NCBI GenBank assembly: GCA_016200325.1
Contig: JACQEZ010000011.1
Coordinates: 1 to 64,000 of the forward strand
Length of the DNA stretch: 64,000 nt
Origin: Candidatus Manganitrophaceae bacterium
Lineage (GTDB): Bacteria; Nitrospirota; Nitrospiria; SBBL01; Manganitrophaceae
Direction: 5' to 3'
The notes under the pieces were generated by a model. The model was not told the origin of the DNA and did not search any database. It worked only from the letters and a program-made list of their open reading frames with translations. The position numbers were made by a program, and so were the translations under genes. Below are positions 465 through 47,013 of this stretch, in pieces (within the stretch, counting starts at the first letter, position 1; each line of letters opens with the position of its first letter).

Positions 465-2201
465 TCAAAATCTAATTAAAGAGAGGCGTTGAAGTTCCTG
501 TTGAAGCAATATGCCGTAGTGGACCACCCATCTTTTGAATCGGGCTCCGTCCGGATCTGGACCGAGCGTCTCCGAGGCCAGATGGGTATATCCGAGCCGA
601 TAAGAGAGATAGACGATTTTGTAGAAGGGGAGGCGGGTCCTCAGCGCGGCATCGTCCATAAGCGATTGATACCGATCGATCAGCAGCGTCTCTTCCCCTC
701 CCGTCAGGCCGAATTCGATCGCAGCGCCGGCGATGTCCCATGCGATGTCTTGGCAGCCGGGGAAAAAATGATCATCGTGATGATCGACCCCGTCGGTCTT
801 GATATATCCTGACCCGGTACGTAGCCACTCGTGCGGCAGCATCCGTCCATCCACCGCAATCGGCCGGGCCGTCTCAAAACAGGTCCGAAAAGGTTCAAGC
901 CGGCCGACTGCTTCCGTCCACCGCTCCCCCAACCCCTCGCCGACGTTGACTCGGACCATCTCGATTATTTCGTCAAATGAACGGCACTGGGAGACAGGAA
1001 AAGTTTGACTCAGATAAGCAAGATAGCGGGCCATCGTCTGAAGAAGGTCCGAATCGATCTCTCCCTTTGAAAGAGGCGACCCCTGGATAAACGGGGTGCT
1101 CAAAAAGCCCCGTTGGAGATCGAGCGGCTCCGGGGCAAACCCCGCCGCGGCAAGCCGCTCTGCCCGTGATCGCCTCGATGTTCCATATCGGCCGAGCCCC
1201 ACAAACTTCAAAAAAAGCGGTCTCTCGCCGGGACGCTCCGGCGTTGAGGCGAGGTATTTCCGGCGCTCATGCTGCGGGTGGACGGCGGGATACTCCGATT
1301 CCGTTTGGTAGAAAAGAGATCGCCACCGGCCGGCGGAGAGATCGCGAAGCGGCCGGTTGGGAGAAAGATCCAAGAAGCGGAGGTTGAAAGGAACCGTATA
1401 CTTCCGATGTCTCTCCCAGCGCGCCCTGGCCTCCTTGGACCGGAAGCGAGAGGGGTCCGGCTCCCAACTCGGGAAGAAGGCGATCCGCTCCTCCGCAATC
1501 CCCAGCTCGGAGAGCCGTTGCGCCACGCAGGTGATGGAAGAGCCGCTCAAGCCGGGCCCTTCATCGACAATGAGGTAGTGTGCGCCGCTCGGCCGGCGCA
1601 GATCGGCCTCCAGTGCGGAGGAGAGGCGAAGGCGTCGGTCAAACGGATGGCCGCGCGGCCGGACCGTGTGAACCTGAACCGGACAACCCTCCCCCTCCAG
1701 CGCGGCGGCCACCACGGCGGAGAGGCTGGCGCCGATGCTTCGAAGACCGATGCAGACCGCCTTTCGCGGGCCGGCCTCTTGGAAAAACCGGGTGGCCGCT
1801 TCGAGGTAGCTTTCAGGATAGAGGGCATAGTAGGCATACCCCTCCGGAGTCCGCGCCACAACGCGGGGAGGAAGCGGCGACGCAGCAATCTCCGAGAGGA
1901 TGCCGCAAAATCGATCGATCCACAGGGGGACCTCACGGGATCGCCGCTGCAGGCTGAGGCGGAAGAGGTGTCCGACACACCGGGCTCCCTCTCGAAATCG
2001 CTTCAGCAGGGGCGACTCGATGTCGATCTCGGGAGAGAGGGCATCGGCGACCGCCGACTCGAGCACCCCCCACTCGATGAGGAGCGCCACAACCGGGTCG
2101 TGCGTCTCAAGACCCACATTCAATCGATCGACCTGCGCTTGGAGCCGACCGAGTCGATCGGCCGGGTCGATCCGCTCCTCTCTTCCTCCATATACAATCA
2201 T
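465..2201 (-). CDS. phosphoribosyltransferase-like / kinase-like fusion protein
   Basis: A 578-residue protein that I do not recognise as a named enzyme. The first ~140 residues have no clear motif. Residues ~144-230 look like a type I phosphoribosyltransferase: IGLRSIGASL (151-160) sits where the pyrophosphate loop should be and YLIVDEGPGLSGSS (209-222) fits the PRPP-binding loop (four hydrophobics, two acids, small residues, G-x-S). Residues ~320-500 look like a phosphotransferase of the aminoglycoside/choline kinase type: LFLKFVGLG (329-337), then an acid/histidine-rich loop (GVDHHDDHFFPG, 471-482) and QDIAWDIAGAAIE (484-496). No signal peptide. It lies 78 bases downstream of pncB on the same strand, so probably shares its transcript and may act on a ribosylated metabolite. 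The fold assignments are inferred from motifs only. Confidence 0.7.
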   Translation of the reverse strand: MIVYGGREERIDPADRLGRLQAQVDRLNVGLETHDPVVALLIEWGVLESAVADALSPEIDIESPLLKRFREGARCVGHLFRLSLQRRSREVPLWIDRFCGILSEIAASPLPPRVVARTPEGYAYYALYPESYLEAATRFFQEAGPRKAVCIGLRSIGASLSAVVAAALEGEGCPVQVHTVRPRGHPFDRRLRLSSALEADLRRPSGAHYLIVDEGPGLSGSSITCVAQRLSELGIAEERIAFFPSWEPDPSRFRSKEARARWERHRKYTVPFNLRFLDLSPNRPLRDLSAGRWRSLFYQTESEYPAVHPQHERRKYLASTPERPGERPLFLKFVGLGRYGTSRRSRAERLAAAGFAPEPLDLQRGFLSTPFIQGSPLSKGEIDSDLLQTMARYLAYLSQTFPVSQCRSFDEIIEMVRVNVGEGLGERWTEAVGRLEPFRTCFETARPIAVDGRMLPHEWLRTGSGYIKTDGVDHHDDHFFPGCQDIAWDIAGAAIEFGLTGGEETLLIDRYQSLMDDAALRTRLPFYKIVYLSYRLGYTHLASETLGPDPDGARFKRWVVHYGILLQQELQRLSLIRF

Positions 2202-2279
2202 CGCAGCGGCTCAGGAGATTAAACGCTCCCGATCAGTTTACAACGATGTTCATCCGCGAGGGAAGCGGCGCAACCTCGC

Positions 2280-3614
2280 TCATTGTTGCCGATCGACCGT
2301 CTTCGCCAGGCTCTCCAGGGAGGGAGCGATTCGGACCGGATAGGGCGGAGCCTCCTCCAATTGCCGAAGCGGTTCGGGAAGCCGGGCCAGCGCGGCGGCG
2401 GTGCGCTTGCGCGACTCCGCCAGCGAAGGAGCAGGGCCGACCGGTCGGCCGGCGCGCATCACCGGCTGGAGAAGCGGCTCTCCTTCCGGTCGATCGTCTA
2501 ACAGAGCGACCAGATCGTCATGCATCCGTCCATCCGGTCCGGTGCGGCGGTAGACCTGTTTTCGTCCCGGCCAGGTGGCCTTTCCCTCGGAGCGCTTGCG
2601 CCGGGGCCGTCCGGCATACTCCTGAAGTTTGTAGGCGCAGTCCAGGTAAGGGACATCGGCGGAGGTATCGAGCCGAGAGCCGATTCCGAAACCGTCGATC
2701 GGCGCGCCGGACATCAGCAGCTCCCGCACCCGGAACTCATCGAGATTGCCGCTCGCCCAGATTTTCACCTCCGCCAGCCCCCCTGCGTCGAGAATTCGCC
2801 GCACCTGTTTTGCATGGGCGGCCAGGTCGCCGCTGTCGAGCCGGACGCCTTGAATCGAAATTCCGGACCCCTTCAGCCGGGGCGCCAGCGAGACCACCTT
2901 CGCCGCCCCCTTTTCGGTGTCATATGTATCGATGAGAAAGACCACATTATTGGGGTGGGCTTTTGCGAATCTAAAAAACGCGTCGGCTTCATCATCATGC
3001 GCCTGGATGAAGGAGTGGGCCAGGGTCCCATACGACGGGACGCCATAGATCGCTTCGGCAAGCACCGTCGCCGAGCCGGTGAAGCCCGCCAGGTAAGAGG
3101 CGCGCGCCGCCATCAGACCGGCTTCGGCGCCGTGCGCGCGCCGCAGACCAAAATCGATCAGCAGCTTGCCTGGCGCCGCGAGAACCGACCGGACCGCCTT
3201 GGAAGCGATGAGGATCTGGAAATGAAGCAGATTGATCAAGCGGGTCTCAATGAATTGCGCCTGCGGCAGCGGGGCGGTCACCCGGACCATCGGCTCGTTC
3301 GGGAAGAAGAGGGTTCCCTCGGGCATTGCATCGACATCGCCGGCAAAACGAAACCGCGAGAGGGCGTCGATAAACTCCCGGCTGAACCGTCCGCTCTCGG
3401 CGAGCCATTGCAGCTCCTGGGAAGTAAAGCGAAGCTGCTCCAGATAATCCAACAGCGGCGCCAATCCGGCGGCGACGAAGAAATTCCGACCGACCGGCCG
3501 GGTACGGATGAAGAATTCAAAGACCGCCGTCTCCGCCATCCCCTCTTCAAAATACCCCTGAAGCATGGTGAGCTGGTAGAGATCGGTCAACAACGGGCTG
3601 GAGGGAGAGAACAA
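2280..3614 (-). CDS. pncB: nicotinate phosphoribosyltransferase
   Basis: 444 residues, the usual size. The enzyme joins nicotinate to PRPP (with ATP hydrolysis) to give nicotinate mononucleotide, the salvage entry to NAD. The N-terminus LLTDLYQLTMLQGYFEEGM is the family signature; SYGTLAHSFIQAH and GVRLDSGDLAAH, followed by KIWASGNLDEF and DGFGIGSRLDTSADVP, are the conserved phosphate/nicotinate-binding stretches. An AAAGGAG Shine-Dalgarno precedes the ATG, and a sigma70-like promoter lies 40-70 bases upstream. It is first of a two-gene unit with the PRTase/kinase fusion downstream. Confidence 0.96.
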   Translation of the reverse strand: MFSPSSPLLTDLYQLTMLQGYFEEGMAETAVFEFFIRTRPVGRNFFVAAGLAPLLDYLEQLRFTSQELQWLAESGRFSREFIDALSRFRFAGDVDAMPEGTLFFPNEPMVRVTAPLPQAQFIETRLINLLHFQILIASKAVRSVLAAPGKLLIDFGLRRAHGAEAGLMAARASYLAGFTGSATVLAEAIYGVPSYGTLAHSFIQAHDDEADAFFRFAKAHPNNVVFLIDTYDTEKGAAKVVSLAPRLKGSGISIQGVRLDSGDLAAHAKQVRRILDAGGLAEVKIWASGNLDEFRVRELLMSGAPIDGFGIGSRLDTSADVPYLDCAYKLQEYAGRPRRKRSEGKATWPGRKQVYRRTGPDGRMHDDLVALLDDRPEGEPLLQPVMRAGRPVGPAPSLAESRKRTAAALARLPEPLRQLEEAPPYPVRIAPSLESLAKTVDRQQ

Positions 3615-45078: not shown

Positions 45079-45172
45079 TGGCGGAGAGGCAGGGATTTGA
45101 ACCCTGGATAGAGGTTTAGGCCCCTATGACGGTTTAGCAAACCGTTGCCTTCAGCCGCTCGGCCACCTCTCC
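45079..45172 (-). tRNA. tRNA-Ser (anticodon GCU)
   Basis: Acceptor GGAGAGG (45172-45166) pairs with CCTCTCC at 45089-45083, then G and encoded CCA. Anticodon loop TTGCTAA gives GCT. A long variable arm (class II) is present, as for serine. Confidence 0.96.
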
Positions 45173-45178
45173 ATTGAA

Positions 45179-45270
45179 TATGGGGGCCTGTCCGGCAACT
45201 GAAGGAGATCCGGTCCTCCAATGCCCCCATGCCCCGCGCTCACACCGGCACAACCGGCTGCTCGCTTTAT
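45179..45270. repeat. copy A of a ~92-base structured element, upstream of tRNA-Ser(GCU)
   Basis: Shares long stretches with 45489-45580, for example GTCCTCC, ATGCCCCCA, GCCCCGC, CACCGGCA and GCTCGC(C)TTTAT in the same order. An inverted repeat TGGGGGC/GCCCCCA (45181-45187 / 45223-45229) encloses a smaller GGAG/CTCC hairpin. It begins seven bases before the tRNA 5' end. Confidence 0.75.
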
Positions 45271-45355
45271 TTGTTTAAATCTCTTTTGTGCCTTTCTACC
45301 CTGCCTCTACGTTTCGAGGCCGCATGAGTAAAGCACCCGCTCGTTTGATCTGCGT

Positions 45356-45384
45356 ATTCTAATCGTGTGCGGTGTCTATTTCAA
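45356..45384 (-). promoter_or_regulatory. promoter for tRNA-Ser(GCU)
   Basis: Minus-strand TTGAAA (45384-45379), 17-base spacer, TAGAAT (45361-45356). Predicted start near 45349, so the transcript includes repeat element copy A before the tRNA. Confidence 0.6.
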
Positions 45385-45394
45385 GTTTTAAGAG

Positions 45395-45480
45395 TGGCGG
45401 AGGGGGTAGGATTCGAACCCACGACCCTTTCGGGTAACGGTTTTCAAGACCGCCGCCTTAGGCCACTCGGCCACCCCTCC
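45395..45480 (-). tRNA. tRNA-Ser (anticodon UGA)
   Basis: Acceptor GGAGGGG (45480-45474) pairs with CCCCTCC, then G and encoded CCA at 45397-45395. Anticodon loop CTTGAAA gives TGA. Class II long variable arm. Lies downstream of serS on the same strand. Confidence 0.96.
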
Positions 45481-45488
45481 ATAAGGTA

Positions 45489-45580
45489 TGTGGGGCCCGT
45501 GCGGCCAGAGAAGAGGCTTGTCCTCCGATGCCCCCACGCCCCGCGGCTCGCACCGGCATCGCCAGTGCTCGCCTTTATTG
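45489..45580. repeat. copy B of the ~92-base structured element, upstream of tRNA-Ser(UGA)
   Basis: Second copy of the element at 45179-45270, in the same place relative to a serine tRNA (nine bases before the 5' end). GTGGGGC / GCCCCCAC again can pair with one bulge, so the fold is kept although the sequence has drifted. Confidence 0.75.
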
Positions 45581-45668
45581 ATCTACGACCGGTCCCTCAT
45601 CCGTCTGGGAAATAATCTCCCTTTCCAAGTCGAAAAGAGAGTTCCCGGAATTTAGCCCGCTCCAATAA

Positions 45669-47013
<1,345 letters not shown>

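Follow-up and report, generated by a model that had tools for sequence, protein, structure and literature searches.

A dispersed family of structured RNA leaders at the 5' boundaries of tRNA, tmRNA and protein genes in the class Nitrospiria

This analysis revealed that two segments preceding neighbouring serine tRNA genes in a Candidatus Manganitrophaceae bacterium are members of a dispersed family of structured RNA leaders of the class Nitrospiria. Small dispersed repeats are mostly regarded as genomic litter; the present family has a strongly covarying RNA fold, its copies adjoin tRNA, tmRNA and essential operon genes exactly where these begin, on the coding strand, and as many as 128 of them occur in a single small genome. 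It is a case in which the conversion of a mobile repeat into a general device for RNA 5'-end formation or insulation can be tested, and it belongs to the same lineage as the cultivated manganese oxidiser Ca. Manganitrophus.

The two segments, each about 95 nt long, structured and on the minus strand, are found in a stretch of 64,000 nucleotides that was analysed as a whole and is referred to here as the window (Table 1). The preliminary description of this DNA had reported that both tRNA-Ser genes are preceded, at a distance of 7-9 bases, by segments sharing the same ordered blocks and able to fold a long stem. Alignment of the two whole copies confirmed the common blocks, and the helix ends 7 nt upstream of the tRNA in the GCU copy and 9 nt upstream in the UGA copy. 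The stem is foldable on the minus strand only: compared with shuffled sequences, the two leader segments gave z-scores of -2.64 and -2.50 on that strand and of -0.24 and -0.49 on the plus strand, where folding is about that of the shuffles. Seventeen copies from the same genome served to build a covariance model (R1), with a structure drawn by hand on a sequence-only alignment. The covariance model matched the GCU copy with 104.8 bits (E 6.1e-34, 45275-45169) and the UGA copy with 85.2 bits (E 2.8e-27, 45582-45477), both of which were among the sequences used to build the model, and the third-best match in the window reached 10.6 bits. Most of the copies scored in other genomes lie outside the training set.

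Table 1. Features of the serine tRNA locus (positions in the window)
Feature	Positions	Strand	Basis or remark
serS-like ORF	45669-46994	minus	ORF list; upstream of both tRNA-Ser genes
Whole element copy ahead of tRNA-Ser(UGA)	45481-45582	minus	covariance model and fold
UGA copy, P1 hairpin	45545-45573	minus	boundaries from covariance-model alignment
UGA copy, GCGGGGC linker	45538-45544	minus	covariance-model alignment
UGA copy, P2 5' strand	45530-45537	minus	covariance-model alignment
UGA copy, inner loops and P3	45497-45529	minus	covariance-model alignment
UGA copy, P2 3' strand	45490-45496	minus	covariance-model alignment
UGA copy, A/U tail	45481-45489	minus	covariance-model alignment
tRNA-Ser(UGA)	45395-45480	minus	ARAGORN; 5' end directly after the tail of its own element
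Sigma-70-like site (TTGAAA, 17, TAGAAT)	45356-45384	minus	promoter scan; between the two tRNAs, upstream of the GCU element
Whole element copy ahead of tRNA-Ser(GCU)	45173-45275	minus	covariance model and fold
GCU copy, P1 hairpin	45238-45265	minus	covariance model and fold
GCU copy, GCGGGGC linker	45231-45237	minus	covariance model and fold
GCU copy, P2 5' strand	45223-45230	minus	covariance model and fold
GCU copy, inner loops and P3	45188-45222	minus	covariance model and fold
GCU copy, P2 3' strand	45180-45187	minus	covariance model and fold
GCU copy, A/U tail	45173-45179	minus	covariance model and fold
tRNA-Ser(GCU)	45079-45172	minus	ARAGORN; 5' end directly after the tail of its own element

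The upstream ORF, identified by eye, is presumably serS, and the gene order serS - tRNA-Ser(UGA) - tRNA-Ser(GCU) is maintained in the genus. The sequence of the sigma-70-like site is kept in all four genomes aligned (including G002, G004 and G005), which places the GCU copy downstream of a promoter-like site conserved in the genus and was counted in favour of a transcribable leader. The suggestion of a conserved leader inside the transcript thus stands as regards structure, retention and a transcribable position before the tRNA; its role in processing is the reading that we prefer, but it is unproven.

With regard to the fold, the element comprises a P1 hairpin, a constant GCGGGG linker, a long P2 hairpin and a short A/U-rich tail. 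P1 is closed by G-C pairs and contains a symmetric GA/GA internal loop (tandem G-A). The P2 helix has about eight pairs, formed by GUGGGGGC with GCCCCCAC, beyond which there are an AU/G loop, two pairs, a GA/GNA loop, two further pairs and a tip. The tip varies freely in sequence and length, and the two internal loops are conserved. A tail of approximately AUANAAUAG closes the element, in gene-adjacent copies and others alike.

Compensatory pair changes were already visible in alignments built without structure. In two alignments of 75 and 90 distinct rows, whose fitting to the model makes pair counts and scores lean towards it, two-sided changes were observed in 19/22 and 17/22 pairs, 95.9% and 97.5% of the pair cells were paired, and the covariation scores were 0.266 and 0.356, where shuffling gave means of 0.113 and 0.133. 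In neither alignment did any of 500 shuffles reach the observed value, and structures slid along the sequence left only 33-47% of the cells paired. The covariance check envisaged in the preliminary description therefore found stems that covary, with many compensatory changes. Among the non-Watson-Crick cells, G-T (111) exceeded A-C (33), which fits an element-sense strand acting as RNA. Rfam 15 contained no family over the element, at either gathering or permissive thresholds, and overlaps remained far under the cut-off, such as tmRNA_permuted with 29.8 of 47 bits (L043 1552-1726); an Rfam identity, including that of a T-box or another leader family, was consequently rejected.

The linker GCGGGGC is nearly invariant in all copies, including the two of the window. 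The CCCC strand of P2 is a possible pairing partner for this linker as well, and is used in that way in the minimum-energy fold of single copies, so that the element may have two competing folds.

A first search of the genome to which the window belongs, with the UGA-leader copy as the query (E<=10), gave 37 matches, mostly at places other than the window. One copy precedes the tmRNA gene by 7 nt; most are located away from tRNAs, with ends just short of protein starts. With R1 at E<=0.01, the wider search proposed in the preliminary description yielded 29 copies in this genome, a relative of Ca. Manganitrophus (Nitrospirota), and these precede tmRNA, tRNA-Lys, several S10-operon cistrons, pgk, argF and folB, among others. 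Three genomes of the same genus hold 13-22 copies each (E<=0.001), and at E<=1e-4 the numbers are 29 in G020, 128 in G021, 48 in G022 and 34 in G031. Across the class, 27 of 116 genomes showed matches (E<=0.01), and in a sample of the phylum 14 of 395 genomes did so at E<=1e-6. Thirteen of these 14 belong to the class, and the sole match outside it is a single copy in a 70%-complete genome. As the best 34 and the best 10 candidates per genome were scored in the class and phylum surveys, respectively, their copy counts are floors. The named carriers are Ca. Manganitrophaceae and Ca. Manganitrophus (Nitrospirota), together with one record titled Proteobacteria bacterium. No element match was found in the viral contigs and phage records searched; two matches were on plasmids, both of Ca. 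Manganitrophus. A literature word search, including the available text of PMC9040806 and PMC12306157, brought up no publication in which an element of this kind is named for this group, which is weak evidence of absence.

To place the copies relative to genes, we measured how far each 3' end lies from the start of a tRNA, tmRNA or coding sequence on the same strand, and used the mirror position on the opposite side of the copy for comparison. The set consisted of the 167 unique copies with flanks in hand, 35 of 202 rows having been removed as overlapping-locus duplicates, and coding starts were called by a home-made coding score rather than a gene finder. In the genus, a start was located within 40 nt in 51/75 copies and at the mirror position in 3/75, a contrast whose sign-test values overstate independence because orthologous sites were counted once per species; the genome of the window alone gave 19/28 and 1/28. 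The corresponding values were 25/40 and 2/40 in G021, which contributed 40 of its at least 128 copies, 4/10 and 0/10 in G022, 4/11 and 3/11 in G031, and 6/13 and 1/13 in other genomes. In G020, where the element is part of a composite repeat, all 18 copies were away from gene starts (0/18, mirror 2/18). Many copies are unrelated to tRNAs, which the preliminary description had associated with a plain dispersed repeat; nevertheless, the strand and position bias towards gene starts, together with the covariation, distinguishes the family from such a repeat.

In 16 tRNA or tmRNA cases the mature RNA starts 7-17 nt past the helix, 13 of them at 7-10 nt, whereas coding starts form a main cluster at 17-27 nt and a second group at 2-12 nt. 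FolB, MurC, AlaRS, CobU and a decarboxylase start 2-10 nt past the GC-rich helix, with a weak Shine-Dalgarno match or none; these close starts are probably right, given that the Pfam domains begin at residues 4-8. The downstream products recognised by Pfam are diverse and include FolB, Orn/Lys/Arg decarboxylase, enoyl-CoA hydratase, succinyl-CoA ligase, Pgk, ornithine/aspartate carbamoyltransferase, 2-oxoacid dehydrogenase E2, L1, RpoB, ATP synthase B, DnaX, YbaB, L9, MetK, LeuA, H+-PPase, signal peptidase, Mur ligase, FtsZ, AlaRS, S13, S11, CobU and L27. The S10-operon cistrons are those that we take, from recognised protein motifs, to be rpsJ, rplC, rpsS, rpsN and rplF. On an annotated Ca. 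Manganitrophus plasmid, one copy occupies the space separating two cob genes, the second of which follows after 13 nt; the next listed gene is about 350 nt from the second plasmid copy.

Several sites have been retained between species. The S19, S14 and L6 leaders carry the element in 5/5 genomes aligned, and the tmRNA, tRNA-Lys and tRNA-Ser(GCU) leaders in 4/4. Ahead of tRNA-Ser(UGA), G000 and G004 have the full element, and G002 and G005 only a P2-like hairpin with other contents; most of the core is gone from the tRNA-Lys copy of G000. These core-less leaders still fold strongly (z -3.86 for Lys in G000, -5.12 and -4.01 for Ser-UGA in G002 and G005), compared with z 0.25 for a tRNA-Arg leader without the element.

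Taken together, we favour the reading, with a probability of roughly 0.45, that the element is a co-transcribed dispersed leader which acts as a 5'-boundary (processing or insulation) module and also spreads as a non-autonomous repeat. A tRNA, a tmRNA and an mRNA leader have in common a 5' end, not translation or an amino acid, which is why a boundary module is preferred. According to this proposal, each copy would be transcribed, and its hairpin would mark the start of a tRNA, tmRNA or cistron within a longer transcript. The A/U tail (AUANAAUAG) would then be cut by a host endoribonuclease, or else kept as an open landing strip, such that the downstream RNA would obtain a defined 5' end and the upstream RNA would keep a protective hairpin at its 3' end. 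The host would presumably benefit. The family also spreads within genomes as a non-autonomous repeat. Cutting is suggested by the close starts with a weak Shine-Dalgarno fit, as an uncut helix would occupy the ribosome-binding zone; if the tail were cut, the five close-start mRNAs would be leaderless.

The main rival is a purely selfish, MITE-like repeat, which would insert by an (A/T-rich)GG or Shine-Dalgarno-like target, or survive where it is harmless, and whose fold would serve its own mobility. This is a real possibility, although a somewhat doubtful one. Many dispersed copies per genome are also typical of MITE-type repeats (ERIC, Correia, RUP). Genome-specific sub-families exist, the nearest relative being in the same genome for 84/167 copies against a shuffled-label mean of 19.7, and the copies of G020 are near-identical. 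The rplC site has a full copy in G000, a mini hairpin in G002 and no element in G004 or G005, which indicates that the element is dispensable there. At several sites, the older 5' half of a copy remains beside a newer full one. Furthermore, 10 of the 167 copies were flagged inside ORFs, several in frame; among the latter, an Lhr-like helicase contains two (G000 and G003) and DabA of G000 contains one. Against a purely selfish repeat, the hairpins remain at tRNA-Lys and Ser-UGA even though the core sequence has been lost, and six leaders are occupied at the same sites in all species compared. The same sites across species, combined with nearest copies in the same genome, indicate that sites last while their sequences are replaced. 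Gene conversion is a possible means of spread.

Also against this rival, neither target duplication nor a linked Y1 transposase or reverse transcriptase was found. In the genus, shared end k-mers were close to the control (k=5, 192 vs 188; k=6, 44 vs 53.5). An earlier apparent fixed offset came from the near-identical G020 copies and disappeared without that genome, leaving a modest total excess (k=6, 128 vs 95.7) and no fixed offset; target duplication was therefore rejected. By eye, no terminal inverted repeats were seen at the ends, (A)AAAG and AUANAAUAG, for the mapping of which few empty sites were available. Among 26 Y1_Tnp loci from 10 genomes, only three element matches were obtained (13.1, 8.6 and 7.3 bits), and the element-bearing G003 and G005 have no Y1 transposase. 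REP/RAYT mobility was dropped, as the Y1_Tnp loci lack element copies, and so was mobility by reverse transcriptase, since PF00078 (RVT_1), found in 0/5 controls, was present in 2/12 and missing from 10/12 of the element-bearing genomes searched, although a carrier of the enzyme may exist elsewhere.

Comparison with known repeats, within the portions of the sources available to us, gives partial likenesses. ERIC of enterobacteria is a dispersed palindromic repeat of about 127 bp, co-transcribed, with terminal inverted repeats and target duplications; in one orientation, it has been proposed to expose an RNase E site, such that upstream and downstream RNAs differ in stability (PMC2229807). The Nitrospiria element is likewise a dispersed repeat taken to be co-transcribed, but it differs in sequence and fold, has no visible terminal inverted repeats or target duplications, and abuts tRNA ends and Shine-Dalgarno sites, which is not described for ERIC in the accessible part of PMC2229807. 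Correia/NEMIS elements of Neisseria are small mobile repeats 5' of genes whose RNA hairpin can be cut by RNase III (PMC2649163, PMC2229807). By that description they are set apart by inverted-repeat ends, a TA target and promoter/IHF motifs, none of which is shown for the Nitrospiria element. Rickettsia palindromic elements occur in frame in protein genes and fused with tmRNA and M1 RNA genes (PMC2229807); in-frame protein copies are common to both families, whereas the Nitrospiria copies are mostly just outside genes, at the 5' edge and on one strand. BOX repeats of Streptococcus pneumoniae are modular, structured and transcribed dispersed repeats, over-represented between convergent genes and with no upstream role according to the available text (PMC3049150), in contrast to the strong one-strand bias of our element to gene starts. 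As far as these four are described, none joins such a fold, a 5'-edge placement and the absence of target duplication. REP/BIME with RAYT also consist of dispersed hairpins, and in G020 hairpin modules are combined into a composite; however, the Nitrospiria element has no linked Y1 transposase and has a two-hairpin fold of about 95 nt.

A bolder version, which we regard as unlikely, is that of a self-spreading RNA module, inserted or retained exactly at gene 5' edges (mature tRNA and tmRNA ends, Shine-Dalgarno sites), which serves as a genome-wide cut-and-insulate leader, possibly self-cutting. If true, part of a bacterial transcriptome, leaderless mRNAs included, would owe its standard 5' ends to a mobile repeat. 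It is quite improbable that the dispersed leader is a self-cleaving ribozyme or an autonomous RNA insulator whose RNA cuts itself near the tail. Its unpaired G-A loops and invariant linker are conserved beyond the need of a plain hairpin, and the distance to the downstream RNA is constant; on the other hand, no ribozyme family of Rfam matches, and some sites without P1 and the core are still structured. There is also little to be said for an RNA that would act on RNA polymerase within operons by antitermination or suppression of polarity: the element does separate a translated gene from an untranslated one (serS and tRNA-Ser) and occurs within the S10 operon, but such a function would not need to abut a tRNA end or Shine-Dalgarno site so closely. 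An internal promoter cassette is very improbable, although the tail consensus, ATATAATAG, resembles TATAAT. Where a gene starts 7-10 nt past the helix, transcription would begin inside the mature tRNA or tmRNA or the coding region, a geometry that fails for tRNA, tmRNA and immediate start codons, and the promoter scan reported no promoter-like site at the tail. Finally, the sensing of serine tRNA by a regulator, put forward in the preliminary description and suggested by the neighbourhood of serS, tRNA-Ser(UGA) and tRNA-Ser(GCU), is hardly tenable: the genome-wide search placed copies before tRNA-Lys, tRNA-Pro, tmRNA and many unrelated mRNAs, there is no Rfam match to a T-box or other leader family, and serine-specific regulation was dropped. 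The idea that one tRNA had been duplicated together with its leader was abandoned after nearest-neighbour comparison, which showed the window copies to be closest to other dispersed copies.

Several variants of the element were observed. In G020 (L087, L101-L127), the core lies within a composite of about 165 nt with the extra hairpin modules GGGGCTTGCGTCGCCCC and CGCTCGCTTTGCTCGC; these copies are near-identical, several are at contig ends, and none is linked to a gene start. The composite looks like a recent expansion. The copies at L013 1480-1582 and L015 1394-1499 have in common an insertion of about 22 nt, AGGGTGGRACACTGGATGTCTC, between GGGGCAC and GGAGGAC, perhaps the sign of a sub-family or of a nested insertion. 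At some sites (L221-L223, the S14 and L6 leaders of G002-G004, and L028 1389-1472), P1 is replaced or preceded by another type of module, GGCTGGGCATCCGGCTTTGCCGGTGACCAG, which often follows a TCAAGCAGGCTTGA or GGGGACCC stretch. In the DabA-like protein of G000 (L059, ORF 489-3104, minus strand), the element is located at amino acids 500-534; 457 profile positions extend over 786 residues, so that this protein has large insertions besides the element copy. In G021, two copies are found near tRNA-Ser(GGA) (L224 3917-4021 and 4125-4229), one immediately ahead of it in the sense orientation and the other close by on the opposite strand.
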